Origin: a virus
Direction: 5' to 3' (one strand)
DNA: 23,238 bases
IMG/VR virus record: IMGVR_UViG_3300014839_000041
Span: 1 to 23,238 of that record
The notes under the pieces were generated by a model, which had not been told where the DNA came from, ran no database searches, and worked only from the letters and a program-made list of their open reading frames with translations. A program made the translations under genes and the position numbers. Of the stretch, positions 346 through 20,604 are shown one piece after another (the first letter of the stretch is position 1; each line of letters begins with the position of its first letter).

Positions 346-378
346 GGCTCATGTGATGTTGAAGCACCACAATGAGCC
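346..378 (+). other. Hairpin between terL and the first HNH gene
   Basis: GGCTCAT (346-352) pairs with ATGAGCC (372-378). The helix continues as GTG (353-355) with CAC (368-370) across one bulged A, around a 12-nt loop. It lies just after the terminase stop and a CTAAATACC motif. No U-tract follows, so it is not an intrinsic terminator; mRNA processing or stabilisation is possible. It covers the GTG at 353, which argues against that codon as the HNH start. Confidence 0.45.
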
Positions 379-406
379 TAAACATGCACTTGGAGTTATC
401 AAGCGA

Positions 407-937
407 ATGTCTGAAACAATTTATTACCCAAGAAAACCAGCAGAAACCTATGACAAACTATGTGTGGAGTGCGGCAACACAAAGCGGTATGTGAGTAATG
501 ACCAATGTGTGTTCTGCAAACTTACCAAAGGGAACAGATATTATCACTCCCATCTAGACAAACTTCGTAAAAAGAATCTCAAGTGGGCAAAAGACAATCC
601 ACAAAAAGTCCGAGACAACAGTCGTAATTGGTCACATGCTAATCCTGATAGGGTTCGTGCGATGCATGTCAAAACTAGATACGGACTAACACCAGAGCAA
701 TATAACCGTTTGATGTTTCTTCAAAAAGGTATCTGTGCTGGTTGTTCTAATCCAGCAACATGTGTAGACCACGATCACAATTGTTGTCCGGGAGAAAGAT
801 CGTGTGGCAAATGTGTCAGAGGATTGCTTTGTAAGGCTTGCAATTCTACATTAGGTCTAGCCAAAGACAACACAACCACACTTCGCAACCTGATTACATA
901 CATAGAGACCTTCAGTCTAACCCCAACACATTCATAA
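407..937 (+). CDS. HNH homing endonuclease, endonuclease VII-like
   Basis: A predicted free-standing DNA endonuclease of 176 residues, inserted between terL and the portal gene. The N-terminus has a zinc knuckle (C19xxC22, C34xxC37). A basic helical linker with repeated DNP/ANPD elements follows. The C-terminus has the endonuclease VII-type HNH fold: GLTPEQYNRL, CAGC, VDHDHN, then VRGLLCKACN with paired cysteines for a second zinc. A Cys-rich insertion (CCPGERSCGKC) lies between the HNH histidines and the RGLLC helix. I chose ATG 407 because the sequence from there aligns with the start of the paralogue at 8992-9516, and a TTGGAG element lies upstream. The GTG at 353 lies inside a hairpin. 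Such genes spread by cutting phage alleles that lack them. Confidence 0.8.
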   Translation: MSETIYYPRKPAETYDKLCVECGNTKRYVSNDQCVFCKLTKGNRYYHSHLDKLRKKNLKWAKDNPQKVRDNSRNWSHANPDRVRAMHVKTRYGLTPEQYNRLMFLQKGICAGCSNPATCVDHDHNCCPGERSCGKCVRGLLCKACNSTLGLAKDNTTTLRNLITYIETFSLTPTHS

Positions 938-2994: not shown

Positions 2995-3609
2995 ATGATG
3001 CAAGACACACAAAAACGAACAGTAACAATTCCGAAGGTCACATTTCGTGCGGCAACTGATACCACGCCAGCCACGGTAAGTGGTCGAGCCATAGTATACA
3101 ACAGTTTGTCGGTTCCGATACCAGAATACGGCGGATTGAGAGAGATGATTTTCCCGGGTGCGGTAACAAACGCCTTGATTGGTGCTGATATTCGTTTGTT
3201 AGTTAATCATGATGCCAATTTGGTGTTAGGAAGAAACACCAGCGGCACCATGACACTCAAAGAAGACGAAATGGGGTTATCCTTCGAGTGTCAACTTGGA
3301 TCACAGTCATACGCTCAAGATTTGGCTGTCACTTTGTCAAGGGGCGACATGTCCGGTTGCAGTTTCGCTTTCAATATCGAAAACTCCACAACCGATAAGG
3401 TTGCTGGTGAGTCAGTAGTAGTCATCCGAAAGATTAGCGATGTCTCAGACCTTAGCGTTGTGACTTATCCAGCGTACACAGCGACAACAGCGAGCGTTCG
3501 GAGCTTGATCTTCAACGAGCCTGAAAAAGTTGTGACACTTGATCCGCCTGATGAGTTGTGGGAAGTTAAGAACCGACAGAGACAACTACAACTGTTGGAG
3601 TTGGAGTAA
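2995..3609 (+). CDS. Prohead maturation protease, HK97 gp4-like (U35)
   Basis: A serine protease of 204 residues that cleaves the capsid delta domain and itself inside the prohead. Key elements are GRAIVYNSLS near residue 30, FPGAV at 53, the catalytic His in LLVNHD (H72), and the serine motif GDMSGCSFAF (S120 or S123). VVTYPAYTATTASVRS is the typical distal strand. The length is close to the 225 residues of HK97 gp4. The start is ATG 2995 with GGAGAG 8 nt upstream, inside the portal stop region; ATG 2998 is the alternative and would suit a leaderless transcript. The last 44 bp overlap the antisense 3' end of the GIY-YIG gene. It precedes the capsid gene it serves, with one endonuclease gene inserted between. 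Confidence 0.9.
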   Translation: MMQDTQKRTVTIPKVTFRAATDTTPATVSGRAIVYNSLSVPIPEYGGLREMIFPGAVTNALIGADIRLLVNHDANLVLGRNTSGTMTLKEDEMGLSFECQLGSQSYAQDLAVTLSRGDMSGCSFAFNIENSTTDKVAGESVVVIRKISDVSDLSVVTYPAYTATTASVRSLIFNEPEKVVTLDPPDELWEVKNRQRQLQLLELE

Positions 3610-4297
3610 GTTTCACTGCTTTGAAACCCTTGTAATGTCCACGACATCCTAGAGTACCATCACTTAGGTTGTGATTACGACAGAATGCTGCTAGATTAAC
3701 TACCTGTTCTTGATGACCGTCTGGAAATGTTACCAACCAATATGCCGACCTATTAATAACTGCGGTCTCTGATTGAGATTTGCCCTTCTTTGCAGCCGAC
3801 TGTCTAAGTCGAGTTTCTTCGGACGGGTGTTTACCTTTTTGCGGCGACACTCTACCTTTCATGTGTTGAGACATGTTGCGCCGTGTCTCTTCGCTGTAGA
3901 TATCAGTCTTACCCTTATTCCAAGCTTTCTGTCCTATATGTTTGTTACTAATTCGGTGGCGTGTTTCTTCGGATCTTCTAACACCTAACACACTTTCGGC
4001 TGTGGGTGAGATGTTGTACAGTTTGCCGCTTGACCAACAACCATCAAGATACAGTTGTTCTATCTTGGTCAGTTGTGTCGGATCGTCAACATACTCTATT
4101 ACAGAGAACTCGAACGCTTCCGTACCATATTTCTTCCACGCATTTTGTAAATGTGTGTTTCTGTGGTTACCTTTAGTCAATGTCGTCCGGTGGGTCGCCC
4201 ATCTTTGTTTTAGGATTACAGCAGAACCGATGTAGTGTTTCAGATTGACTGTGTTCACTATAGAGTAAATCCCGCCTTTGGTTAAGTCATAAGCCAT
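3566..4297 (-). CDS. GIY-YIG homing endonuclease with NUMOD3 repeats
   Basis: A 243-residue homing endonuclease on the reverse strand between protease and capsid genes. The catalytic domain (1-95) shows GGIYSIVN (I10-Y11), the HYIGSA motif (Y22-G24), an Arg in KQRW (R32), a candidate metal-binding Glu (E80) and YNISP. NUMOD3 DNA-binding repeats follow at about 106-175 (SEETRHRIS, SEETRRNMS, SEETRLRQS with GKxP/KGK turns). A C-terminal module (about 185-230, SAYWLVTFPDGHQEQV then FCRNHNLSDGTL) is probably a helix-turn-helix or IENR-like DNA-recognition unit. The extreme C-terminus (PTPTVVVVSVGS) is read antisense to the end of the protease gene. A strong sigma70-type promoter ends about 7 nt before the ATG, so the mRNA is probably leaderless. 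Confidence 0.88.
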   Translation of the reverse strand: MAYDLTKGGIYSIVNTVNLKHYIGSAVILKQRWATHRTTLTKGNHRNTHLQNAWKKYGTEAFEFSVIEYVDDPTQLTKIEQLYLDGCWSSGKLYNISPTAESVLGVRRSEETRHRISNKHIGQKAWNKGKTDIYSEETRRNMSQHMKGRVSPQKGKHPSEETRLRQSAAKKGKSQSETAVINRSAYWLVTFPDGHQEQVVNLAAFCRNHNLSDGTLGCRGHYKGFKAVKLTPTPTVVVVSVGS

Positions 4298-6084: not shown

Positions 6085-6882
6085 ATGCCAGCCCCTACAA
6101 CTTCCGTTTCCTGTGCGTCGGACACCCCGTGGTTCGTGGTTTATCATCTCACGGCGTCTTTTACCGATACACAGCAAACCAATGCAGTAGTTCATACTGC
6201 TTCAGCACTCAAATACATTCGACCAGGAGTAACCGCTCCAAAATCTTCCATTGTCAGTACCAAATACAATTCCGCTGTATCAGGTGTTGTTAACTTTGCT
6301 TATGACAATGCTACAGGAAACCTTTTGGCGTCTACCACAGGCTTTACTACTGGTCAGTCATACGATATTACCTTAACTCTCCGCAAAGAGCCATCTGATG
6401 TCTCTACAGCGCCGAATGTGACCGCTTTGACCATGGTTGACGCCCATAGCGGAATCTATGTAACTGGCGACACGCTGCGGGTTAAGGCAACCTTCGATCA
6501 AGTCATTTATGTCGAGTCGGCACACAGTTACATCAAATTCTCATTAGATTCCGGCGACATCTACGCTCGATACCGTGGTAATCAGACTGTCAGCGCTGTT
6601 AAGACTGGCTCTGGCACATTATATGCGGTCTTTGAATATACTTTCAAGGCTACAGATGGGGCAAGCGCTGGCTACATGTCAGTTACTCACATTGACAACA
6701 CCATCTTTGGTTCTGATGTTGGGCACCTTTCAGTAAGAGATGTTCTACCGGCCATCACAGGTATCGCCAATTTCACGGTAAACGAAAAGACGGGTGTGCT
6801 CAAAACGCAAACTGGAAAGACAAGAATAACCGTCAGAACCACAAAGACCTTGACTGGCACAACCAATATTGCAGGAGCCTAA
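6085..6882 (+). CDS. Ig-like domain virion protein (putative head decoration)
   Basis: A 265-residue beta-rich protein. Residues about 15-105 form a repeat-poor N-terminal domain (WFVVYHLTASFTDTQQTNAV, SGVVNFAYDNATGNLLAS). Residues about 108-240 match the bacterial Ig-like pattern YxTGDTLxVxxTFDxxxxV followed by SGDIYARYRGN and LYAVFEYTF. The tail tube protein at 9634 carries the same domain type. The last 30 residues (TGKTRITVRT, TKTLTGTTNI) match the 14-15-residue repeat of the 850-residue tail protein. It follows the capsid genes with GAGGA upstream of the ATG. Ig-like domains on phage virions often bind host-surface or environmental glycans. Head decoration is inferred from position; it could also be a neck or whisker protein. 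Confidence 0.65.
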   Translation: MPAPTTSVSCASDTPWFVVYHLTASFTDTQQTNAVVHTASALKYIRPGVTAPKSSIVSTKYNSAVSGVVNFAYDNATGNLLASTTGFTTGQSYDITLTLRKEPSDVSTAPNVTALTMVDAHSGIYVTGDTLRVKATFDQVIYVESAHSYIKFSLDSGDIYARYRGNQTVSAVKTGSGTLYAVFEYTFKATDGASAGYMSVTHIDNTIFGSDVGHLSVRDVLPAITGIANFTVNEKTGVLKTQTGKTRITVRTTKTLTGTTNIAGA

Positions 6883-8554: not shown

Positions 8555-8995
8555 ATGATCGCAGAACTCGAAATATTGGGATGGGTGGTTTCGGCGTTGA
8601 AAGCCGCAAACATAACTGGGTTGAATCCTAATACCGGCAATAGTCGCACTGTTGCTGTGTATAACGAAGTCAAACAGAATGCTTTTGTACCGTATGTCAG
8701 AGTTTCGTTTACCGACACCTTGAACATTGAGACGGAGCCGATGGATTATGCGTTCGTGCCGACTGCGAAGGCGATCAACCTAATCGTGAATGTCTTTTCC
8801 GACTACTCACCGGAAGCCCTAAACATCGCCAGCCAGATTCAAACCGTTCTGCAACACACCGAAGTTACCACGACGAATTATCACGGCAACACTTGGTTTA
8901 AGAGTTGCGATTTCTACGATGATAATTCCAATCCAGACAGGCTGCTACGGTGTGCCGCCTTACGCATCGAATGCCGGATAGAGCCGATCATTTAA
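8555..8995 (+). CDS. Tail terminator / completion protein (DUF3168-like)
   Basis: A 146-residue protein placed where siphophages encode the tail terminator, which caps the tail tube and docks it to the head. The N-terminal helix (MIAELEILGWVVSALKAANI), then VAVYNEVKQNAFVPYVRVSF and a later LIVNVFSDYS plus helix EALNIASQIQTVL follow the DUF3168 / gpU-like pattern of an alpha-beta fold. A GGGATAAT element serves as ribosome binding site. The stop TAA overlaps the stop of the reverse-strand HNH gene in a shared TTAA at 8992-8995. Confidence 0.75.
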   Translation: MIAELEILGWVVSALKAANITGLNPNTGNSRTVAVYNEVKQNAFVPYVRVSFTDTLNIETEPMDYAFVPTAKAINLIVNVFSDYSPEALNIASQIQTVLQHTEVTTTNYHGNTWFKSCDFYDDNSNPDRLLRCAALRIECRIEPII

Positions 8996-9516
8996 CCACT
9001 GGTTTCAAGATATGTAATGGCATTGCGAAGTATGGTTGTGTTGTCTTTTAATGAACCGATGCCATGATTACAAGGTCCACAAAGCAATCCACGAACCTTT
9101 CCAGTTACATGATTATGGTCAACATGCGGCTTTGTTAGTGGTTCATCACAGATTGCACAGATACCACGCTGACAAAAGAACATATGGTCAGACTCCTGCT
9201 GTGTAATTCCATAGGTTCGTTGGCGGTATTGTTCTATTGCTCTTTGGGGTTTATATCTGGCTTGCGCCCTTTCTGGATTGTTGGTTACCCAGTTGGTGAC
9301 AATTTGTGAAAGACAATAAACACACCGTTTGCTGCTCATATATCTTGTAGTTCCGCCACACTTTCGACACACTTTTCCTTCAAAGGTTTCTGCTTTTTGT
9401 CTTCGTGGATTCCCTTTAAGTTTGCAGTAAACACATTGATTATTACTCACATACCGCATTGTGTTTCCACATTTGACACACAGGTTGTCATAGGTTTTTG
9501 TGGTTTCTCTTGGCAT
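8992..9516 (-). CDS. HNH homing endonuclease with two zinc knuckles
   Basis: A 174-residue reverse-strand homing endonuclease between the tail terminator and tail tube genes. Two tandem zinc knuckles open the protein (CVKC/CVYC near residues 13-31 and CRKC/CVYC near 50-69), whereas its paralogue at 407-937 has one. A basic linker (NNPERAQARYKPQRAIEQYR) leads to the endonuclease VII-type HNH core: CAICDEP, HVDHNHVTGKVRGLLCGPCN, then a helix with KDNTTILRNAITYLE. The N-terminal knuckle shares long runs of identical DNA with the first HNH gene. The ATG has GGGAG 9 nt upstream and a consensus promoter. It converges on the upstream tail gene with overlapping stop codons. Confidence 0.85.
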   Translation of the reverse strand: MPRETTKTYDNLCVKCGNTMRYVSNNQCVYCKLKGNPRRQKAETFEGKVCRKCGGTTRYMSSKRCVYCLSQIVTNWVTNNPERAQARYKPQRAIEQYRQRTYGITQQESDHMFFCQRGICAICDEPLTKPHVDHNHVTGKVRGLLCGPCNHGIGSLKDNTTILRNAITYLETSG

Positions 9517-9633: not shown

Positions 9634-10404
9634 ATGCTAGCGAAGGGCGTAAAAGTTTCACTCGGTGCCGGTGATGGACCGCCAGAGTCATTCAATCAAA
9701 TCATCAATGTAACATCATTCACGCTGTCTGGAACTACATGGGCGACTGAAGATGTTTCGAGTCATGACAACGCAGTACCAGTCAAGAACACGGCGACAAC
9801 AATCAGAGATGAAGGAAAAGTTAGTCTGATTATTAGTCCTTATGTTCGTGGGGATCAGTATCATGCAGCCTTACGAACTTTGAGTCTTTCAGGCGCAGCA
9901 AACAACTTCAAAGTCACTTATCCTGGCGATCAAATGGGTAGTTTCCAGTTCTCCGGTTATGTAAGTTCGTTCTCATACGATACGCCAGTGCTTGGTTTGC
10001 TTAAAGGAAAAGTTGACATCTTAGTCAACGGTGCTTTGCTTGATGACGCAGCAAATCTTTTGTCAGTGGTAGTCACCGACGCCAATGCACCAAATTACAC
10101 CACGGGTGAAACCTTGGAACTCACAGCGACCTTCGATGAAATTGTAAATGTCACTGGCGTACCAAAAATTGCGGTCGCTCTGACATCAGGAACGGTTTAT
10201 GCCAACTACGCATCAGGCACCGACACGAATGTCTTGAAATTCAGTCATGTAATCGGAAGTGGCGATGCATCAGAAGCAGGCACGATGACTGTAGGAACGC
10301 TTGGATTGAATGGTGGGTCAATCCTTGACTTCGGCGGCAATGTCGCTGTGGTGACCTTCGTAGCGCCAACAACGACCACTTTTTCAGTCAATCACTCAGC
10401 ATAG
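9634..10404 (+). CDS. Major tail tube protein with C-terminal Ig-like domain
   Basis: A 256-residue protein that should polymerise into the tail tube. Residues 1-140 form the tube domain (TSFTLSGTTWATEDVSSHDN, GKVSLIISPY, GYVSSFSYDTPVLGLLKGKV, DILVNGAL) and are roughly half identical to the next gene product. Residues about 143-256 form a bacterial Ig-like domain: YTTGETLELTATFDEIVNVT, then ALTSGTVYANYASGTD. This architecture parallels lambda gpV, which carries a surface-exposed C-terminal Ig-like domain dispensable for assembly. GCGGGG precedes the ATG. It is the first structural gene after the HNH insertion and follows a CATAAATA motif. Confidence 0.82.
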   Translation: MLAKGVKVSLGAGDGPPESFNQIINVTSFTLSGTTWATEDVSSHDNAVPVKNTATTIRDEGKVSLIISPYVRGDQYHAALRTLSLSGAANNFKVTYPGDQMGSFQFSGYVSSFSYDTPVLGLLKGKVDILVNGALLDDAANLLSVVVTDANAPNYTTGETLELTATFDEIVNVTGVPKIAVALTSGTVYANYASGTDTNVLKFSHVIGSGDASEAGTMTVGTLGLNGGSILDFGGNVAVVTFVAPTTTTFSVNHSA

Positions 10405-10443: not shown

Positions 10444-10836
10444 ATGGCACTTGCAAAAAATACAGTATTCAAAGTCAACACCGTAGCAGTTACCGGTGTC
10501 ACATCAATTTCTTGGTCAGGTAGAGTCTTTGCAACAGAAGACATAACGAACCACGACGCAGCCACACCAGTAAAAATGGCACAAACAACAATTGCCGATA
10601 ACGGAAAGGTGAGTCTAATTCTGTCTCCGTATGACAAGGGCAATACTCAGCACGCTTTGCTACGGTCTCTTAACATTAGTGGCGCATCGGCTGCATTCGT
10701 GATGGTTCAGGTTAACTCAGGCGAAACCGCAACCTTCAACGGGTATGTAAGTTCCTTTAGTTGGGACACTCCAGTTCTCGGGATTCTTAAAGCCAAAGTA
10801 GACATTCTTGTCAATGGCGAAATGACGATTACCTAA
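10444..10836 (+). CDS. Second tail tube protein, paralogue without Ig-like domain
   Basis: A 130-residue paralogue of the preceding protein, containing only the tube domain (ISWSGRVFATEDITNHDAAT, GKVSLILSPYDKG, GYVSSFSWDTPVLGILKAKV, DILVNGEM). The ribosome binding site GAGGAAAA is better than that of the longer paralogue, so it may be the more abundant subunit. Two models fit. The tube may be mixed, with the longer subunit displaying Ig domains at intervals, as SPP1 does with gp17.1 and its extended form; or the proteins may build different tail regions. A 14-bp hairpin follows within 15 nt of the stop. Confidence 0.8.
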   Translation: MALAKNTVFKVNTVAVTGVTSISWSGRVFATEDITNHDAATPVKMAQTTIADNGKVSLILSPYDKGNTQHALLRSLNISGASAAFVMVQVNSGETATFNGYVSSFSWDTPVLGILKAKVDILVNGEMTIT

Positions 10837-11282: not shown

Positions 11283-11611
11283 AGGCATTTTGCAGCCAGC
11301 GGTTGCATTTGTCTTACGAAGAAATTGATGATACTACGCCGCTGGAACTTGAAGCGCTGACAGAGCATTACTTGGATGAATTAGACATCGATAACCAGCG
11401 CTTTGGTTTGATCTGTTCGACTCTATGCAATCTGAAAAGAGACCCAGACCAGAAACCAGAACCTTACCAGCCGAGTGACTTCTTCAGGATGCATCGAGAA
11501 CAAGAAAGTTTCAATATTGAAACTTCCGAGCAGGACCACACAACCGAAATGTTGGATGACTTTTGGGTTTGTATCAAGACAAGAACAAGAATGAAACAAG
11601 GTAAAAAATAA
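11234..11611 (+). CDS. Tail assembly chaperone, T-like frameshift extension
   Basis: This -1 frame segment encodes about 125 residues that would be fused after the slippery site, giving a GT-like protein of about 231 residues. After the shift the frame reads through FTTEDGRICWSKLKAFCSQR into LHLSYEEIDDTTPLELEALT, where LHLSYEEID is typical of the second chaperone domain, then an acidic and helical tail (FFRMHREQESFNIETSEQ). A separate start at TTG 11303 has no ribosome binding site and would discard the conserved junction, so frameshifting is preferred. The stop shares its last base with the tape measure ATG (TAATG). An exact 20-bp palindrome lies in this coding region. Confidence 0.75.
   Translation, partial: SKGFTTEDGRICWSKLKAFCSQRLHLSYEEIDDTTPLELEALTEHYLDELDIDNQRFGLICSTLCNLKRDPDQKPEPYQPSDFFRMHREQESFNIETSEQDHTTEMLDDFWVCIKTRTRMKQGKK
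11506..11525. repeat. Palindrome copy 1 (20 bp, in chaperone T-like frame)
   Basis: AAGTTTCAATATTGAAACTT is a perfect 20-bp palindrome. Its central 18 bp recur exactly at 16234-16251. Here it encodes SFNIET in the T-like frame and has no T-run. A symmetric DNA-binding site for a dimeric protein is a plausible role. Confidence 0.85.
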
Positions 11612-14600
11612 TGGCTTCAGATCTCTTAGTGAAAATTGGCGGCGATACCACAGATTTTCAAAACTCGCTGGCGGGTCTTGGTCAATCACTGATGAAGATG
11701 GTTGGTGACCTAAACCCAATCGTTGCTGGAGCCATCACGACTGTAGGTGGTCTTGCTGTGGCGGCGGTGTCAAGCGCAATTACAATCGAGGATGCCTTCA
11801 ATGTGCTCATTTCACAGACCGGTGCATCAGGCGACAAATTAGAAGGACTCAAATCAACATTCTCTGATATTTTTACAAGTATTCCTGTCGGTGCCAAAGA
11901 TGCAGCAGATGCTATCAGTATTCTTTCCGACCGCTTGAACCTTACCGGTAACGACTTAACCGCTCTGACGAAACAACTGGCTGAGTATAGCGTTGCTACT
12001 GGAACTAACTTGGTTGCCAATACTGATGCTGTATCAAAAGCGTTTTTGAATTGGAACATTGCGACCGGCGATCAAGGTACATCACTTGACCAATTGAATG
12101 TCATTTCTCAGCAGACGCATGTAAGTCTTACTACCTTGGGTACAAGCATGGCAGATATCGGCAACCTTGCCAGAATGTCTGGAGAAGATTGGGGAGAAGC
12201 AGCAAGCCAAGTTGGTACTCTATCCGCCGCTGGAATTGATGCCAGTGCAATCTTTCAATCCATGTCTCGTGCAATGGTACAAGCCAATGCTAGCGGCCAG
12301 GATTTATCTACAGTTACTTTGCCTGCGATGGTCTATGCAATTGAACATGCAAGTACAAGTCAAGAAGGATTCAATTTAGCCGTTGAAGACTTTGGTGCCC
12401 GCAAGGGACCGGTCATGTTCCAACTCATTCAAGATGGAAAGATCACCGTTGAAACTTTGACTAAGAGTATTGATAGTTCGACAGACTCAATCAAAAATAT
12501 GTATTCAGAGACGGATACTCTGTCCAAAAATTTATCGACACTTGGAAACCAATTAACAACATGGCTTGCGCCAGCAGGAAATGCCGCTGTGAAATATGGC
12601 GGTGATATTGTCGCAAGTTTGAACATGATAATTGTCAGTTCAAATGCGCTTCAGACCGTCTTGAATGGTGGAATATTTTCGTTGGATCGTTGGTACGCTG
12701 CTGGACAAGCGATGGCAGACTACATGCAGGGCACGGCTGCGTGGACGCAATACCAAAACTCAATAAAGGATTCCACAGCCGCACTTGCCCTACAAGCCTT
12801 TCAACTGGCGCTGAACGCAGAGAGACAGGCGAGTGCGAACGATGCAGCCAAGGCAGGCGCAGACGCAGCAGCAGCAGCAAAAGTAGCGACAGCCGAAAGA
12901 ACAGCCGTATTAGCATTGGAGAAAACCGCACTTGAAGACCTCACTCAAGCCGATGCACAACACGCAGCGGATATCAAGGCGCTTTACATTCCTGCGATTG
13001 AATCCCTTGTGAACGCCGAAGAAGATGTAAATGCTGCCCGGACTTTACTAAAGCAGTGTGATGACAATCTAGTCTTAGCCGAAGCAAACTTGGATGCTGC
13101 AAGGGTCAGTGGTAATGCCACATCGACGCAACTGACTGCATTGGAGAAAGCCGTAACCGATGCCAAGTTAGCGGCGAAAGACGCCAACCTATTATTGACT
13201 GACAGTGAAAAGACTCTTACTGAATCAAAGTTAGCGGATAAAGCCGGAACCGATCTCTATAACGCCACGCTTGCGATCACTTACAAAGCCATTGCAGACC
13301 AGAACGACATTCATACTGACTACATCAAAGTAATCACTGACGAATTGAACAGCACGAAATTACTCGACGCTTACAATAAGACTGTCATTGGAACTGAAGA
13401 TGATCTTGCAACATCACTAACCAACATTCAAGTTCTCAGACAAGATCAAGCAGACAAAGCATCGGCATTACAAGCAACCTTGGCTGCGGAAAACGAATTG
13501 ACCAAGCAAGGTGTTGTCAATGAAACAGACTCAGCAACAGCGTTGGAGAATTCCAAAGTAGCGCAAGATGCCTATAAAGCATCGACAGACTTATTGAATA
13601 CTGCGATGGATGCCGCCACGAAGAATTTCGGTCTGTCGAAAGATGCAATTCTCTTGATGACAACTACGGTTGGTAGCGCTGCTACGGCATCTGGTTTATT
13701 ACAACTTGCCTACAATGTCTTGGGTACTACATCGACAACATCATTTCAGAATCAAGCCGATGCCGCTAAGAAAGCGTTTGACACTATCGCATCATCCGGC
13801 ACAGCCACAACCAATCAGTTAGAGGCTGCATGGGTTGCCTATTACGGCAAACAGTTGGCATTGGACCAAGCGAACGGCACCGCAATGTCAGCAGCCGATC
13901 AAATCAGTTACGCCAATATGTCGCAAAACATGAAGGACTTCTCGGCTGAACATTTGACGCAATGGTCTGACCTGTACAACAAGATTGATACGACTGTTAA
14001 AGGAACCTGCGATGATATGATAAAAGCGCTGGTGACTGGTGACGGGTCATTCGTCAGCATCATGGAAAAGGGTCTTCAAGATATCGGCGTTGCTGTTCTG
14101 GAATCTTTGGTCAAGCCGTTTGAAGATGCGATAGCAAGACTCATAGCCGGTCAACTTACGAACTTGATTTCGAGTCTTGGGTCGGTCTTAGGTCTGACAA
14201 AGGACATCGGAACAAGTTGCACAACGAACTTAGGCAGTCTGACTGGTAGTACCGCAACGAGTGGCGCTGGTGGCGCTGCTAGTGCTGGTGGTTCGGCAGC
14301 AAGTGCCGCTGGATCTGCCGTGTCAAGTGTCATGGGCATTGTAAATGTCATCACGGGTGCTATTAGTGCGATTGCAAATGTGATTACAGCCATTCAAGGT
14401 TTCGAAGAGTTAGGCAAACTGGCATCCATCGAAGAGAACACAAGATACACACAGTTGTACCTCGGCGGGCGTGCAGATCAAGGCGTGTTGGGTCAACTCT
14501 TTATAATGGGTGATGATTTACAGTTTGGTATCACTCCGAGAAATCTTGACGCCATAAAGTCATTCAGCGAGAACATCAGCAACCATAGTAACGATTTGTA

Positions 14601-14823
14601 TTCGTGGATTCAATTGGTTGAAGGAGACCTTTCGAATCCAGCAAGTTGCATAAACAGTTCCCTGATTAACATCACCAGCGGAATTACGAATGGCTTTGCC
14701 AATGTCAGTGCAGCAATAGCAGCCAACAACCCAATCGTGAATGTCGCTGTAACTTTAGACGGGGCGGCAATTGCGGCGGCAGTGGAAACGACTATAGAGT
14801 CAGCGATCAAACAGGCGACATAA
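11611..14823 (+). CDS. Tail tape measure protein
   Basis: A 1070-residue tape measure that sets tail length and leaves during DNA ejection. At about 0.15 nm per residue it predicts a tail near 160 nm. The N-terminal third follows the TP901-type core (TVGGLAVAAVSSAITIEDAF, ISILSDRLNLTG, SRAMVQANASGQDL). An Ala-rich coiled coil spans about 390-560 (RQASANDAAKAGADAAAAAK, ERTAVLALEKTALEDLTQAD, with LLLTDSEKTLTESKLA). Near 900-935 a Gly/Ala/Ser stretch leads into a hydrophobic segment (VSSVMGIVNVITGAISAIAN), a candidate membrane-inserting region for ejection. No lysozyme or peptidase motif is visible. It begins in TAATG with the preceding stop, and an AAGG element precedes it. Confidence 0.93.
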   Translation: MASDLLVKIGGDTTDFQNSLAGLGQSLMKMVGDLNPIVAGAITTVGGLAVAAVSSAITIEDAFNVLISQTGASGDKLEGLKSTFSDIFTSIPVGAKDAADAISILSDRLNLTGNDLTALTKQLAEYSVATGTNLVANTDAVSKAFLNWNIATGDQGTSLDQLNVISQQTHVSLTTLGTSMADIGNLARMSGEDWGEAASQVGTLSAAGIDASAIFQSMSRAMVQANASGQDLSTVTLPAMVYAIEHASTSQEGFNLAVEDFGARKGPVMFQLIQDGKITVETLTKSIDSSTDSIKNMYSETDTLSKNLSTLGNQLTTWLAPAGNAAVKYGGDIVASLNMIIVSSNALQTVLNGGIFSLDRWYAAGQAMADYMQGTAAWTQYQNSIKDSTAALALQAFQLALNAERQASANDAAKAGADAAAAAKVATAERTAVLALEKTALEDLTQADAQHAADIKALYIPAIESLVNAEEDVNAARTLLKQCDDNLVLAEANLDAARVSGNATSTQLTALEKAVTDAKLAAKDANLLLTDSEKTLTESKLADKAGTDLYNATLAITYKAIADQNDIHTDYIKVITDELNSTKLLDAYNKTVIGTEDDLATSLTNIQVLRQDQADKASALQATLAAENELTKQGVVNETDSATALENSKVAQDAYKASTDLLNTAMDAATKNFGLSKDAILLMTTTVGSAATASGLLQLAYNVLGTTSTTSFQNQADAAKKAFDTIASSGTATTNQLEAAWVAYYGKQLALDQANGTAMSAADQISYANMSQNMKDFSAEHLTQWSDLYNKIDTTVKGTCDDMIKALVTGDGSFVSIMEKGLQDIGVAVLESLVKPFEDAIARLIAGQLTNLISSLGSVLGLTKDIGTSCTTNLGSLTGSTATSGAGGAASAGGSAASAAGSAVSSVMGIVNVITGAISAIANVITAIQGFEELGKLASIEENTRYTQLYLGGRADQGVLGQLFIMGDDLQFGITPRNLDAIKSFSENISNHSNDLYSWIQLVEGDLSNPASCINSSLINITSGITNGFANVSAAIAANNPIVNVAVTLDGAAIAAAVETTIESAIKQAT

Positions 14824-14824
14824 C

Positions 14825-15400
14825 ATGGAAATGACCATCACTATAGACGGAACTCCGGTACAAGCGATCTTGTCTTCAATTTCCATCACAAAGGATTTGA
14901 ATGGGCGGAGTTCTCAGTGCTCGTTTGACTTGGCGCTTGATCCACTTGCACCAAGCACATTTCCTACGACAGAACAGGAAGTGATTATCACGAACAGTAT
15001 TACAGGCACAAAGATATTTCGTGGTTTCATTACATCACTTACAATCGACCAGAAGTCCATCAAATTGGCTGTGTGGACAATCGGCTGTATTGGCTTAGAA
15101 TTTCTCTTGCAAAATGTTTCGATAAATCGTGCGTGGGTTGGGATGACTGACAGAGCAATCATTCAAGACGCATTCACCAGCGTGCTACCAGAGGTAACGA
15201 CAACATCGGCAACCGTATCGCAACTCTTAACATCGATTGATTACACAGCCAAGGATCAAACATTAGTAGAATTTGTGAAACAGATAGCGGCTTTGTCAGG
15301 TGCGGATTGGTTCATATCTTGTGATAAAGCGCTGGTCTATTATCCTTCAGGCAGCATTGTCGCACCTTTCGCATTTGGAGACCACCCAAACATTGGATAG
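14825..15400 (+). CDS. Tail hub / tip protein, N-terminal half
   Basis: A 191-residue protein directly after the tape measure. It resembles the N-terminal half of phage tail-tip hub proteins: an opening barrel (MEMTITIDGTPVQAILSSIS, RSSQCSFDLALDP), EVIITNSITGTKIFRGFITS, a second barrel, then the helical insertion DRAIIQDAFTSVLPEV and DQTLVEFVKQIAALSGADWF followed by KALVYYPSGSIVAPFAFGDH. Full-length relatives usually continue after this APF.DH element into a second barrel domain. Here a stop follows at once. The missing kind of domain is visible at 18937-19350 in another gene. The distal-tail role is inferred from fold pattern and position. Confidence 0.7.
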   Translation: MEMTITIDGTPVQAILSSISITKDLNGRSSQCSFDLALDPLAPSTFPTTEQEVIITNSITGTKIFRGFITSLTIDQKSIKLAVWTIGCIGLEFLLQNVSINRAWVGMTDRAIIQDAFTSVLPEVTTTSATVSQLLTSIDYTAKDQTLVEFVKQIAALSGADWFISCDKALVYYPSGSIVAPFAFGDHPNIG

Positions 15401-15409
15401 ACGATAAAT

Positions 15410-15661
15410 ATGACGTACAAGTTATCAGAACAAGAACAGAAGACAATCAATGGTCTTCAAGCCGAATTCAAAACCAGCCAAGACAATCTCTTGAGAATTC
15501 AAGGTGCGTTTAACGGTTGCGCCCAGATGTTAGCCAGCCAACAAAACTTGATCGTCACTGGTAGAGAACAACTCCAATTCAGTTCGGATTTCAGCGAACT
15601 AACAGTAACAAGCCCGGATACATCCGAGCAGAGAAAGGAAATACCACAAGAACAAACATAA
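15410..15661 (+). CDS. Small coiled-coil protein, 83 residues
   Basis: I do not recognise this protein. It is a single long amphipathic helix (EQEQKTINGLQAEFKTSQDN with LLRIQGAFNGCAQMLASQQN) followed by a polar, Pro-containing tail. There is no membrane segment. It starts 9 nt after the hub N-half stop, with its ATG overlapping an ATAAATATG sequence. Its position suggests a tail tip component or chaperone. Coiled-coil features alone do not decide. Confidence 0.55.
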   Translation: MTYKLSEQEQKTINGLQAEFKTSQDNLLRIQGAFNGCAQMLASQQNLIVTGREQLQFSSDFSELTVTSPDTSEQRKEIPQEQT

Positions 15662-15674
15662 GAGGAAATATAAC

Positions 15675-16235
15675 ATGGCAGAAACATTTCATTGGTGCGA
15701 AGATAATGGCGCACAAACAGGGTCTCCACTTCACGGCACCACACGCAGCGGCTTCGGAGCCGATACTAACTTCCCCCAATCGTGCAACTGGAAGAGCATA
15801 GATGATAACAGTGACAATGCCGGTACACTTTATTCGGCTGCACCTATTACGGCTGGCAATAACTCAATGAAGAAGTACCAGTATGCTCACTTTAGTGGGT
15901 CGTTCAATCAAATTCTGAACGGCATTTGGTCACTTCATACCGCAGGCACTAGCCCGATGGGGACTGGACTCACTCTCCAGGGGTCTGTTACATCCACATA
16001 CTCGACGCCATCCACATCGACACTAACTGGCACTGACTTCTCTAGCACAATCGCTATCGGTTCTGGCATCGCAGTCAATTTCAAGACGACTGGTCCTGAA
16101 GGCGCATCGCCAAGTGCAACACTGAGTGCTGAGGGTTATTCGCAGTACTTCTGTTCGCAGTTGCAAACGACCTCGGGTGCAGCCAGCGGCGACACACCTG
16201 TGATTACTCAAACGCTGCGTTACGATTCAAACTAG
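15675..16235 (+). CDS. Tail tip / appendage protein, 186 residues
   Basis: A beta-rich 186-residue protein. It opens METFHWC-like (MAETFHWCEDNGAQTGSPLH, with GTTRSGFGADTNFP), then WKSIDD, YSAAPITAGNNSMKKYQYAHF and FSGSFNQILNGIWSLHT. The C-terminal barrel part includes FKTTGPEGASPSATLSAEGY and SGDTPVITQTLRYD. I recognise this as a type seen beside S74-fibre genes in environmental siphoviruses, with unproven function, probably a tail tip or receptor-facing appendage. AGAGGAAA precedes the ATG. The stop codon lies within the second copy of the repeated palindrome. Confidence 0.6.
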   Translation: MAETFHWCEDNGAQTGSPLHGTTRSGFGADTNFPQSCNWKSIDDNSDNAGTLYSAAPITAGNNSMKKYQYAHFSGSFNQILNGIWSLHTAGTSPMGTGLTLQGSVTSTYSTPSTSTLTGTDFSSTIAIGSGIAVNFKTTGPEGASPSATLSAEGYSQYFCSQLQTTSGAASGDTPVITQTLRYDSN

Positions 16236-16251
16236 TTTCAATATTGAAACT
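16234..16251. repeat. Palindrome copy 2 (18 bp, intergenic)
   Basis: AGTTTCAATATTGAAACT is identical to the core of the palindrome at 11506-11525. It begins in the stop codon of the appendage gene and is followed by TTTTATAAGG. The hairpin form with a T-run could act as a weak terminator, but the T-run is missing at copy 1, so a protein-binding site is equally likely. The AAGG after it is the ribosome binding site of the next gene. Confidence 0.85.
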
Positions 16252-16267
16252 TTTATAAGGCAATACC

Positions 16268-16684
16268 ATGCATAAATTTCTTTTTGAAGCAACAATGACT
16301 GATGGCTCTGTAATTCAAGAGACACCAGAAGACAAGTCAAATACGACCGAAGGTAGAAACGCTTTCTATGATGTGATTCAGCGCATCGGCGAAGTCAAGC
16401 GTTTCAGCCTTCGGAACTGTGTGACAGACGCAGGCGACACTTCTACAGTGTCAGTTGATTTGACTGATGGCACTTTCACAATGAATGGTAGTCAACCATT
16501 CACAGTTCAAAATCCTTCCGTCGAACTTGACAACAATCCAGAATATAGACTCATTTACTTTCGTCGTGTCTAACAACACAGACATATGGATGGCACACAG
16601 TCAAGTGACATGGAGTTTCATATCGGTTGGCAAGTCACCACGGAAGGCGGCAAGAATGTCAAATACACAATAGCAGTGAGGTAA
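16268..16684 (+). pseudogene. Tail appendage protein interrupted by in-frame TAA
   Basis: The annotated frame gives 101 residues (MHKFLFEATMTDGSVIQETP to YRLIYFRRV) and stops at TAA 16571-16573. The same frame continues for 36 more codons (QHRHMDGTQSSDMEFHIGWQ, then VTTEGGKNVKYTIAVR) to a second TAA at 16682-16684, two bases before the fibre start. The EFHIGWQVTTEGGKNVKY end looks like a natural barrel-closing strand pair, as in related phage proteins ending after a GWQ(T/V)T element. One base change in TAA would restore a 138-residue protein. Alternatives are genuine truncation with a 32-residue downstream peptide from ATG 16586, programmed read-through, or a sequence error. The function resembles that of the neighbouring appendage genes and is unproven. 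Confidence 0.55.
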
Positions 16685-16685
16685 T

Positions 16686-18038
16686 ATGTCATTAGATAGC
16701 ACAAAGAATTTCGCAAAAGCAACAGTATCAACTTTATATGATGCTGCTGCAACATCAATCGTTCTGTCCACAGGGCACGGAGCTAAACTTCCTACCGCAC
16801 CTTTCAATGTGGTCTGGTGGAACTCATCTGACTATGCAGACCCGTCTGACGATCCGAATGTAGAGATTGTCCGAGTCACTATTGTGTCAACAGACACATT
16901 GACAGTGACCAGAGCGCAAGAAAGCACTTCCGCATCCACAAAGAATACTGCTGGCAAGACATACAAGATGATTGCTGGACTGACTGCCAAAGTCATGAAT
17001 ACAGACTTGGCAGCTAACTTTTTGCCTAATAGTGGGCTGGCAACAATTTCTGGTGCGAGTGCTGGTTTAAACATCCAGCCTGACGCAAGTACTGCTGGTT
17101 CCATAGCGGTATATACGCAAAATACCCAAACTCAGGGCGGTAGTGCTGTATACATGTTGAGCGGAAACAACAACACTTATCCAGCAGCGAATAACACACT
17201 CGGAACAATCGAGTTTAGAAACTTGGCGTGGGGGCTAAGTGCGTTTGTCAGAGGCTACGCATCACAGCAACATACAGCATCGGCGACGGGCGGATTTTTA
17301 ATGGTTGGAACAACCGCAAACGGAACGACCACAAGCACCGAGCGAATGAGAATTGACCAAAACGGTAATGTCAACATTGGAGCGGCGGCATCTCCGGGTA
17401 ACAAGCTTTGTGTAACATCGACAGCGAGCATTGATGGTGTCGCAATTACCAGCTTAGACCGTGCAAGTCTTTGGTTTAATGTTACGAACGGCAGTAGTTA
17501 TAATTGGTTGATTCAAAATGCAGTTGGCGGTTCTGGTGATCTTCAATTTCTTGCTTCTACAACAGCAGGTGGCACGCCGACGACCTCTGTGATGACGATG
17601 TTGTCAACCGGTAAAGTTGGCATCGGCATGACGCCAACTCACCAGCTAGAACTATCTACTGACTCAGCCGCTAAACCAACATCTTCTACCTGGACTATTG
17701 TATCTGACACAAGACTCAAAACAAATATCAAACCGTTTACCGATGGATTGAAAGTTGTCAAAGCATTAGATCCGATCACTTATGACTACAACGGCAAAGG
17801 CAACATGCCAACCGGAGTTAGTGGAATTGGTTTGATCGCTCAAGATGCACAGCCACATATTCCTTACGCAATCGGTTCTCACAAAGCTAAACTTTCACCT
17901 GATGACACCGAAGAGACGGACATTCTTAACTTGAGTTGTCATGCTCTGCCTTTCATCCTGATTAACGCCGTGAAGGAATTGTCTCAACAAGTTGAAGTCT
18001 TGACACAAGAAATCAAGGTATTAGAAGCTAAACAGTAG
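16686..18038 (+). CDS. Tail fibre with S74 intramolecular chaperone
   Basis: A 450-residue tail fibre or spike. The N-terminus (STKNFAKATVSTLYDAAATS, VVWWNSSDYADPSDDPNVEI, VRVTIVSTDTLTVTRAQEST) is a beta domain likely to attach it to the tail tip. The middle is a Gly/Ser/Thr-rich beta region. From about residue 340 the peptidase S74 domain begins: SDTRLKTNIKPF, with the Ser-Lys dyad candidates S340 and K345, then LDPITYDYNG, GIGLIAQDAQP and a terminal helix (FILINAVKELSQQVEVLTQE). In S74 proteins this domain trimerises the fibre and then cleaves itself off. GAGG lies just upstream of the ATG. It would provide receptor binding. Confidence 0.88.
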   Translation: MSLDSTKNFAKATVSTLYDAAATSIVLSTGHGAKLPTAPFNVVWWNSSDYADPSDDPNVEIVRVTIVSTDTLTVTRAQESTSASTKNTAGKTYKMIAGLTAKVMNTDLAANFLPNSGLATISGASAGLNIQPDASTAGSIAVYTQNTQTQGGSAVYMLSGNNNTYPAANNTLGTIEFRNLAWGLSAFVRGYASQQHTASATGGFLMVGTTANGTTTSTERMRIDQNGNVNIGAAASPGNKLCVTSTASIDGVAITSLDRASLWFNVTNGSSYNWLIQNAVGGSGDLQFLASTTAGGTPTTSVMTMLSTGKVGIGMTPTHQLELSTDSAAKPTSSTWTIVSDTRLKTNIKPFTDGLKVVKALDPITYDYNGKGNMPTGVSGIGLIAQDAQPHIPYAIGSHKAKLSPDDTEETDILNLSCHALPFILINAVKELSQQVEVLTQEIKVLEAKQ

Positions 18039-18051
18039 GCGGTGAGAATCG

Positions 18052-20604
18052 GTGGTATTTGGACAATCCAGTTACGGAGAATTAGAGCTTGGTGGGCAGC
18101 ATAGCGGTCAGACTACGCTCCAAACCGCAACTGGAAAATCTAGAATCACACAGCCAAATGTCATTCAAACGGCAACTGGAAAATCGAGAATCACCAATGC
18201 TGGTGTAACCCAAACCGAAACCGGCAAAGCCAACATCCGGGCGACTACCCTTCAGACCGCAACCGGTAAATCAAGAATCACGATTGCCAATGTCACCCAA
18301 ACGGCAACTGGCAAATCCAGAATTACGAATGCCGGAGTCATTCAGACGGCAACTGGTAAATCCAGAATCACCAGTGCAAATGTAGTTCAGCATTTGGATG
18401 GCAAAGCCAACATTCAACTTCCGCATGTTTTCAAAACTCTTGATGGTCGGTCGAACATTTACAACACCACCTATCAAACCTTTCCTGGAAAAGCGTCTGT
18501 CAAACAATCGGCACTTCAGACCTTATCTGGAAAAGGTTGCATCGCCTATGAAGTGTTGCAAACCCTTAACGGCCAAGCACGCATCTATGAGACCAGTTTC
18601 CAAACTCAACTTTCTGTAAGTCGAATTCTTCAACGAGTGCCGCAGAGTTTGACTGGTGTTGCCAAAATAACCAACAGCACTTATCAGACACTTACCTGTG
18701 TGTCGAAACTGACGGCAACTACAGACCAAACCCTTGCAGGAAAATCATCGGTTAGAAACACATCTACACAAAGCGCAGACGGTCGTTCAAGAGTATCTGG
18801 ACATACAAGTCAAGTACAGACAGGAAAATCATCAGTTCGCAACACGACGCTCAAGACACTCGCTGGAAAAGGTTCGGTCACAAAGACGCAGTATAAAACG
18901 CTTACCGGTCAAGCATCCGTAGCATCGCCAGTTTATCCATGGAGGATATCTTCAGTCCAGACCACTTCAAGTCAATTCGCAAATCGTGTGACTGTGCTTG
19001 GTGCCTTCGACAATGATGTGGAATTAAGGTCAACGGTGAATGATCTTGTAAGTCAAGCCGCATTGGGAAGAGTAATTTCGGCTATCGTAGTAAATCGAAA
19101 TATTGACAACCAAGCAGCGCTGGACTTGGATGCTCAGATAGAACTTGAAAGCCGTGGTGTGCTCGAAACGATTACATTCGATCACGACACTGATGGATTA
19201 GATGTTGGAATGCTTGTGAGAATTGACTCTGACGGAGCGAATGTACATGACTCTTTCGTAGTTCAGACAGTCAAGATGGTTCAGAAGACACCGAGTTGGA
19301 CAGTCTACTCAGTCACAGCGGGAAATTATCAAGGCACATTGGCACAGCGAATTCGTGAACTTGCAAGGATCGCAACTGGGCCGGTGCTACAGCCAGCAGT
19401 GCCGCCACCAGCCGGTTCGATTGGTACAGCCGAATTAGGCGTCGGTGCTGTACAAGCACTCAATATCGCCGCACAAGCAGTGACTAATGCGGCATTGGCA
19501 GTGGGTGCTGTTGGTCCGAGCATTCTGGCGGCTGGTGCTGTGACCACTACAGCCATTTCAGATAACGCCATATCGACTCCGAAATTGCAAGCCGGTTCGG
19601 TTACTGCCGTGAGTCTTGCGACTAATTCGGTGGTCGCTGGTAAGATTGCCGCTGGCGTCATTGTTGGCACAAATATTCAGGCTGGCACTGTGACCGCTCA
19701 GAATGCCATCTTTGCTACAGGTGCGATACAGACGGCGGATATCGGCACGGCGACAATCACAGGCGCAAAAATTGCCACGGCGACCATAACGGATGCAAAC
19801 ATAGTCAACGGCACAATCACTAACGCTTCGATTGCCAACGCCACCATTCAGTCAGCCAAGATCGCTTCTCTGAATGCTGACTTGATTAACGCCGGTACAC
19901 TGAACGCAAATCTCCTTGCTGTTGGATCAATAACAGGTCCCAAGTTACAGGATGGAACTGTAACCGGAGTCAAGATCGCCAGCGCCACAATCACAGATGC
20001 AAACATTGGAAGTCTGTCCGCAACCAAGATAACAACAGGAACTTTAAACGCTACAGTCATTGCAACTGGATCAATTACAGGAATCAAGTTGGCTGATGGT
20101 ACTGTGACAGGAGTTAAGATAGCGTCTGCAACTATCACGGATGCGAATATTGCCAACTTATCGGCAGACAAACTGACCGCTGGCACAATCAATGCGACAA
20201 TCAGCATCAACTCACCTATCATCACGGGCGCATCAATCTCGGGTGGATCATTAAGTATTGCGACTGGAAACGGAACGGTTTCAATTTCATCCGGTAGCCT
20301 TGGGATAGCTGTTACAGGCGGTGGTTACACCAGTTCTGTGTCCGGGGGTGGCTTCTACACTACAGGTGGATTCCAATCGACTGGCGTGGTAACTTGTGGG
20401 GCAGTAAATATCACAGGTTCTTACGCTGGCTACGGAGTGTATTGCCCAAGCTATGCGATAAATTGTGCTTCTTTGAAGACCGGCGCAGTCGTCGCAACAA
20501 GCTATGCAATCAGCGGTGGGTATTATGGGCAGGATGCTATCGGCATTGTGTGTGGCGCAAGAACTTTGTATTTCAAACAAGGAATGCTGTACGCATGGTC
20601 TTAA
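18052..20604 (+). CDS. Repeat-rich tail tip protein with hub C-half and beta-helix
   Basis: An 850-residue protein with four parts. (1) Residues 24-295: about 19 copies of a 14-15-residue repeat of the form QT-x-x-GK-s-r-I. (2) Residues 296-435: a domain like the C-terminal half of tail hub proteins (FANRVTVLGAFDNDVELRST, GRVISAIVVNRNIDNQAALD, GLDVGMLVRIDS, then FVVQTVKMVQ). (3) Residues about 455-715: hexad-type beta-helix repeats (TITGAKIATATITDANIVNG), with a 48-residue unit occurring twice. (4) A Gly- and Cys-containing tail ending CGARTLYFKQGMLYAWS. GTG start, with GGTGAG upstream. It probably joins the tip to a fibre-like extension. The domain mix of hub half plus fibre suggests fusion of formerly separate genes. 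Confidence 0.78.
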   Translation: MVFGQSSYGELELGGQHSGQTTLQTATGKSRITQPNVIQTATGKSRITNAGVTQTETGKANIRATTLQTATGKSRITIANVTQTATGKSRITNAGVIQTATGKSRITSANVVQHLDGKANIQLPHVFKTLDGRSNIYNTTYQTFPGKASVKQSALQTLSGKGCIAYEVLQTLNGQARIYETSFQTQLSVSRILQRVPQSLTGVAKITNSTYQTLTCVSKLTATTDQTLAGKSSVRNTSTQSADGRSRVSGHTSQVQTGKSSVRNTTLKTLAGKGSVTKTQYKTLTGQASVASPVYPWRISSVQTTSSQFANRVTVLGAFDNDVELRSTVNDLVSQAALGRVISAIVVNRNIDNQAALDLDAQIELESRGVLETITFDHDTDGLDVGMLVRIDSDGANVHDSFVVQTVKMVQKTPSWTVYSVTAGNYQGTLAQRIRELARIATGPVLQPAVPPPAGSIGTAELGVGAVQALNIAAQAVTNAALAVGAVGPSILAAGAVTTTAISDNAISTPKLQAGSVTAVSLATNSVVAGKIAAGVIVGTNIQAGTVTAQNAIFATGAIQTADIGTATITGAKIATATITDANIVNGTITNASIANATIQSAKIASLNADLINAGTLNANLLAVGSITGPKLQDGTVTGVKIASATITDANIGSLSATKITTGTLNATVIATGSITGIKLADGTVTGVKIASATITDANIANLSADKLTAGTINATISINSPIITGASISGGSLSIATGNGTVSISSGSLGIAVTGGGYTSSVSGGGFYTTGGFQSTGVVTCGAVNITGSYAGYGVYCPSYAINCASLKTGAVVATSYAISGGYYGQDAIGIVCGARTLYFKQGMLYAWS
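18121..18936 (+). repeat. Tandem 42-45-bp coding repeats (about 19 units)
   Basis: Each unit encodes 14-15 residues such as QTATGKSRITNAGVT. Units 1-6 are nearly identical at DNA level and later units diverge (KTLDGRSNIYNTTY, QTLAGKSSVRNTST). The pattern fits unit gain by slippage or recombination at the N-terminal side. The conserved GK/GR and an alternating hydrophobic pattern suggest a stacked beta turn or a short beta-solenoid. Confidence 0.85.

Follow-up and report, generated by a model that had tools for sequence, protein, structure and literature searches.

Hubs are among the most conserved parts of phage tails. The question raised by this locus is why the hub domains are not located here on one polypeptide, the two halves of the hub being encoded in separate genes 3.5 kb apart, and how such an arrangement could have arisen. 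The window, that is the whole stretch of DNA analysed (23,238 bp), is an entire linear IMG/VR record and probably a fragment, the contig being incomplete. Its genes run from the terminase end through portal, protease, capsid, connectors, major tail proteins and a chaperone-like gene to the tape measure and the tail tip. The place of the hub gene is fixed by its upstream neighbour, the tape measure protein (TMP, 11611-14823, on the plus strand like all further features of the locus; PHROG tape measure, E 3.6e-13), and the N-terminal half of the hub starts directly behind it at 14825. In the tail module two adjacent genes (9634-10404 and 10444-10836) both match phrog_158, a family of major tail proteins, and a 265-aa protein at 6085-6882 is linked to the first of them by iterated search. 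Two endonuclease VII/HNH-like genes and one GIY-YIG homing endonuclease gene are found free-standing in the window (353-937, plus strand; 8992-9516 and 3566-4297, minus strand), two of the three on the opposite strand between structural genes.

The protein of 191 residues encoded after the tape measure (N191, 14825-15400), which ends in APFAFGDHPNIG-TAG, was regarded in an earlier note as the N-terminal half of a tail hub, and its coordinates were given correctly. That domain assignment, at first made from pattern recognition only, now rests on profile matches. An HMM built from six one-gene hubs of other viruses, with the window sequences left out, matches N191 over model positions 27-211 with E 5e-26, and pairwise blastp comparison with the hub vir515_00034 gives E 2e-7. 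The AF2 model of N191 is of low confidence (pLDDT 45.6); used as a Foldseek query it brings contractile-system spike, VgrG, Mu gp44 and MuSo2 hub chains to the top ranks, which points weakly in the same direction. Based on homology and on the secondary structure of this low-confidence model, N191 would comprise the first barrel and the helical domain of the hub. In the alignment with one-chain hubs it runs beyond this putative helical region and ends no more than about 25 residues ahead of the NRV strand.

Between N191 and the 850-residue protein downstream the ORF coordinates agree with the description of four genes (83, 186, 101 and 450 aa) and an array of short repeats (19 units). The small 83-aa protein (15410-15661) is encoded in the same frame as N191, 9 bases past its stop, and no homologue of it was found in Pfam, PHROG or the 19 virus contigs with similar arrays described below. 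Read-through of N191 into this ORF across the TAG was considered and rejected, the 83-aa ORF having no visible hub similarity. It is followed by a 186-aa protein of unknown function (15675-16235), with homologues in 17 of the 19 array contigs (the best 51% identical) and none in the GenBank phage collection or the PDB, and by a 101-aa protein (16268-16573; rest of the frame at 16574-16684) with homologues in 16 of them. The 450-aa tail fibre (16686-18038) carries a C-terminal Peptidase_S74 chaperone domain (Pfam PF13884, E 1.6e-12) and matches PHROG tail fibre families. The 850-aa protein (18052-20604, GTG start) begins with the TGKARI repeat array (18052-18930), comprising 19 units of 13-15 aa at residues ~28-290, continues with a globular stretch at residues 296-435 and ends with fibre-like repeats.

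It had been proposed that residues 296-435 of this protein (18937-19356, in frame behind the array) are the missing C-terminal half of the hub, and this is borne out by the profiles. The 850-aa protein matches the six-hub HMM further along the model than N191 (E 2.7e-4, positions 341-428), and the model gap between the two matches corresponds mostly to an insertion domain that is absent from the window. Once this domain is cut out, the alignment starts at the SQFANRV strand, ends at residue 422 and takes in almost the whole C-terminal profile (residues 302-422, E 7e-6). The segment is the best match after the true hubs among about 450 other ORFs, and scores 26.7 bits against 11.2 for the top of 5,000 shuffles. 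The homology of the C half to hubs is significant but modest. The same profile also matched the 265-aa protein mentioned above (E 1e-4), which was set aside because only 37 residues were covered. The AF2 model of the C half is unusable (pLDDT 36.5); by its homology the segment would be the second barrel of the hub. The array continues in frame into this half, so the array protein is here not independent of the hub, and an internal start freeing the C half from the array was rejected, as ATG, GTG and TTG are absent in frame between 18702 and the NRVTV strand. Behind the hub segment, fibre-like stalk repeats and the C-terminal end follow (19372-20604), with PHROG tail and tail-fibre families matching residues 455-734.

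The two halves, both with open frames, complement each other. Their profile matches are in order and do not overlap, and N191 lacks the C-terminal part that is found in the 296-435 segment. The distance between the APF and NRV motifs amounts to 25 residues, 9 of them closing N191 and 16 opening the C half, compared with 24 in the intact hub of the IMG/VR contig G003, so almost nothing was lost or duplicated at the cut. Divergence from the relatives is similar for both (18-30% for the N half, 20-25% for the C half), which is what would be expected if both are still under selection.

Library searches with the window proteins alone were nearly silent on the identity of the hub. A joined query (N191 plus residues 296-445) gave one match among 50,697 phage records, vir515_00034 of a Methanosarcinales virus (E 0.01), in a single alignment crossing the junction. 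This 611-aa one-gene hub, encoded after the tape measure, led on to the THSA-485A hub (Tsac_2848) and to the contigs L006 and L007. In L006 (1713-3540) the one-gene hub seems broken into two overlapping frames near 2446, with an intact close copy in L007, probably owing to a frameshift error. The single-gene version that the earlier note had suggested looking for in related viruses thus exists: one-gene hubs with both parts, right after the tape measure, are vir515_00034, Tsac_2848 of THSA-485A and the hubs of the IMG/VR contigs G003, G013 and G017. The family matches Pfam YqbQ-like, Prophage_tail and GPD as well as PHROG baseplate-hub families, the G003 hub being YqbQ-like at the curated cut-off, and a weak GPD C-terminal match falls on the part that corresponds to the C half. 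A PDB profile search with the hub alignment gave zero matches. No relatives turned up when IMG/VR was scanned for exact peptides from N191, the C half, the portal, the TMP and the array, or GTDB genome contigs for those from the C half; alignment scans gave candidates, none of them confirmed. Gp18 of Streptomyces phage Chymera, suggested as a one-gene version by similar head genes, was discarded for want of usable similarity.

The existence of one-chain relatives bears on the view that this lineage has long had a two-chain hub, comparable to lambda gpL/gpJ and RcGTA gp13/gp15, and that the inserted genes merely moved between already separate hub genes. In lambda (L-K-I-J) and RcGTA (13-14-15) the two hub genes are indeed separated by further genes (PMC10721106), and the window hub is placed on a long branch. 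All relatives found are nevertheless one-chain, and the N-half tree, although poorly resolved, puts N191 among the one-chain hubs with 77% support; the C-half tree is unresolved and the two trees are without clear agreement. N191 also seems to extend past the first barrel into the helical region, so the break looks later than HDI, and it has three scattered cysteines (32, 88 and 166 only) in place of the four-cysteine Fe-S domain of gpL, with no Pfam gpL match. Moreover, the array is fused to a hub half, a fusion that a simple move between genes would not produce. An old split is for these reasons held to be unlikely.

The origin of the intervening genes can be followed in other viruses. Nineteen virus contigs were fetched by the DNA pattern of the array, and in three of them a one-gene hub stands behind the tape measure. 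The presence of the array in these contigs is a consequence of the selection, that of the genes accompanying it is not. In most of the 19 the same order recurs: a 186-aa homologue, a small gene of an ~80-aa family, a 101-aa homologue, variable genes such as fibres, and the array. In the window the 186-aa and 101-aa homologues are likewise followed by the array, and the N-terminus of the 450-aa fibre is common to variable genes of the cassette in two contigs, G001 and G006. In the other virus contigs similar arrays are separate genes ending on their own. In at least seven of the contigs (G001, G003, G007, G008, G013, G014 and G018) PHROG or profile matches identify the genes next to the cassette as encoding a portal, terminase, capsid or head-tail adaptor protein. 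In G010 and G012, which are closest by the 186-aa protein (51%), it lies, judged by eye, seemingly downstream of a tape-measure-like gene. The cassette was found inside a hub in none of the 19 contigs, a hub being recognised in only three, and the head module of the window is without it. That the same cassette occurs elsewhere unconnected with the hub supports the claim that fibre and appendage genes were placed inside the original hub gene; as far as these comparisons of sequence reach, the intervening genes are not original to it. The insert bears no sign of a known splicing element: a search with a cut-off of E 1 detected no Rfam self-splicing RNA family in it, and neither of the hub proteins has a match to an intein family, N191 ending inside the hub alignment. 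No recognised mobility gene is located within the cassette and no flanking repeat at the insertion, so that excision by such repeats is without support.

The 101-aa gene is cut by an in-frame TAA (16571-16573), and the frame beyond it carries the conserved end EFHIGWQVTTEGGKNVKYTIAVR of the 129-158-aa homologues. The TAA may be a nonsense mutation, a sequence error or a site of read-through. This truncated gene is the chief warning sign of the locus, hinting at decay or sequence error. It could be taken to suggest that the metagenome assembly combined pieces from more than one phage, the more so as the split is carried by a single linear IMG/VR contig and as artefacts occur in the collection. 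Among the related contigs G004 (L038, 13495 bases) reads as a mirror-image palindrome in which each cassette gene has a second copy on the other strand; it is probably an artefact of assembly. A chimera would require two false joins, both in one hub gene and leaving complementary halves, one of them in frame and the other terminated by a stop codon where it is cut, followed 9 bases later by a new start, and the GC content is much alike across both junctions. Such an assembly error is regarded as highly improbable. The truncated gene and the incomplete contig could equally be brought forward for a split that is real in a hub that does not function, either in a defective phage or because the C half only anchors the array and the stalk while a complete hub is encoded outside the contig. 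The other structural frames are open, though, the hub place after the TMP is occupied, the halves are about equally conserved and a hub-profile search of the record found no second hub; this explanation, too, is deemed very unlikely.

The explanation considered likely is that the cassette was inserted into a one-chain hub gene and that both chains now co-assemble; against it weigh the occurrence of the split in one metagenome contig, no close relative or second example having been found, the nonsense codon in the 101-aa gene, the lack of a flanking repeat, the low quality of both AF2 models, the modest homology of the C half and the want of clear agreement between the two trees. An ancestor phage would have encoded a one-chain hub of the YqbQ/Tal/GPD type directly after the tape measure. 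A virion-appendage cassette (the 186-aa and 101-aa genes, the S74 fibre and the TGKARI array) would then have recombined between the N- and C-terminal halves, the left half keeping its own start and ending in a stop, and the last cassette gene being joined in frame, on the right side, to the hub C half and the stalk. By analogy with T4 gp27, lambda and RcGTA, the two chains would co-assemble at the tail tip in three copies each and form one functional hub. In T4 gp27 two similar barrel domains per chain give a pseudo-sixfold ring in the trimer (PMC3004832); the pseudo-hexamer ring of gp27-type hubs would here have become a true hetero-hexamer, a tail-tip ring probably built from two different proteins. 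The TGKARI array, joined to the N-terminal end of the C half, would be an external appendage tied to the hub, and the C-terminal stalk may form the central fibre.

Two-chain hubs are known from lambda gpL/gpJ and RcGTA gp13/gp15, whose four hub domains are divided between two proteins with other genes between them (PMC10721106, PMC7296036), so the kind is not new, and the hub domains of the window are likewise placed on two chains. In lambda the second protein runs on into the central fibre (PMC10721106, PMC7296036). In these systems the first protein consists of HDI and an Fe-S domain and the second of HDII-HDIV, whereas the break in the window seems to lie further on, after an N half that would comprise barrel and helical domain; the four-cysteine site is missing, and in front of the second half stands a repeat array. 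To the one-chain YqbQ, Prophage_tail (Tal), GPD and T4 gp27 hubs the window hub is homologous over both halves and it occupies the same place after the tape measure, but those hubs are single polypeptides and have an additional domain (~80 residues) inserted behind the NRV strand. The TGKARI cassette of uncultivated viruses has the same genes in the same order, its 186- and 101-aa proteins being ~27-51% identical to those of the window; there the array ends alone, apart from the hub and often in the head module, while in the window it is fused to a hub half. In phage Aeh1 the insertion of mobE also divides a gene, nrdA, whose product works as two chains, though the insert is a homing endonuclease gene and not, as here, a multi-gene virion cassette without a recognised mobility gene (PMC3653736). 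The hub gp147 of B. thuringiensis phage 0305phi8-36 was remodelled by attached domains, possibly by domain transfer, but unlike the window hub it stays one polypeptide (PMC2147016). Literature searches returned no report of a hub split by a cassette and none of TGKARI arrays in phages. As far as literature and collections show, novelty lies in the break point, in an array fused to the second half and in an origin that looks independent, and further in the fact that one-chain state and cassette are both identified.

On balance there is a slight leaning towards the complete scenario, in which a one-chain hub was converted independently into a two-chain, hetero-hexameric one by a cassette landing in its gene and welding the TGKARI array to the tail tip. 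A split hub for which one-chain relatives and the cassette have been identified can be treated as a natural experiment on the transition from one chain to two that lambda and the GTAs represent, and the fusion of array and hub hints at where in the virion the TGKARI-array proteins, so far unexplained, are located. If true, the cassette-driven conversion would show in one step a possible route to lambda-type split hubs and a possible workplace of the array proteins.
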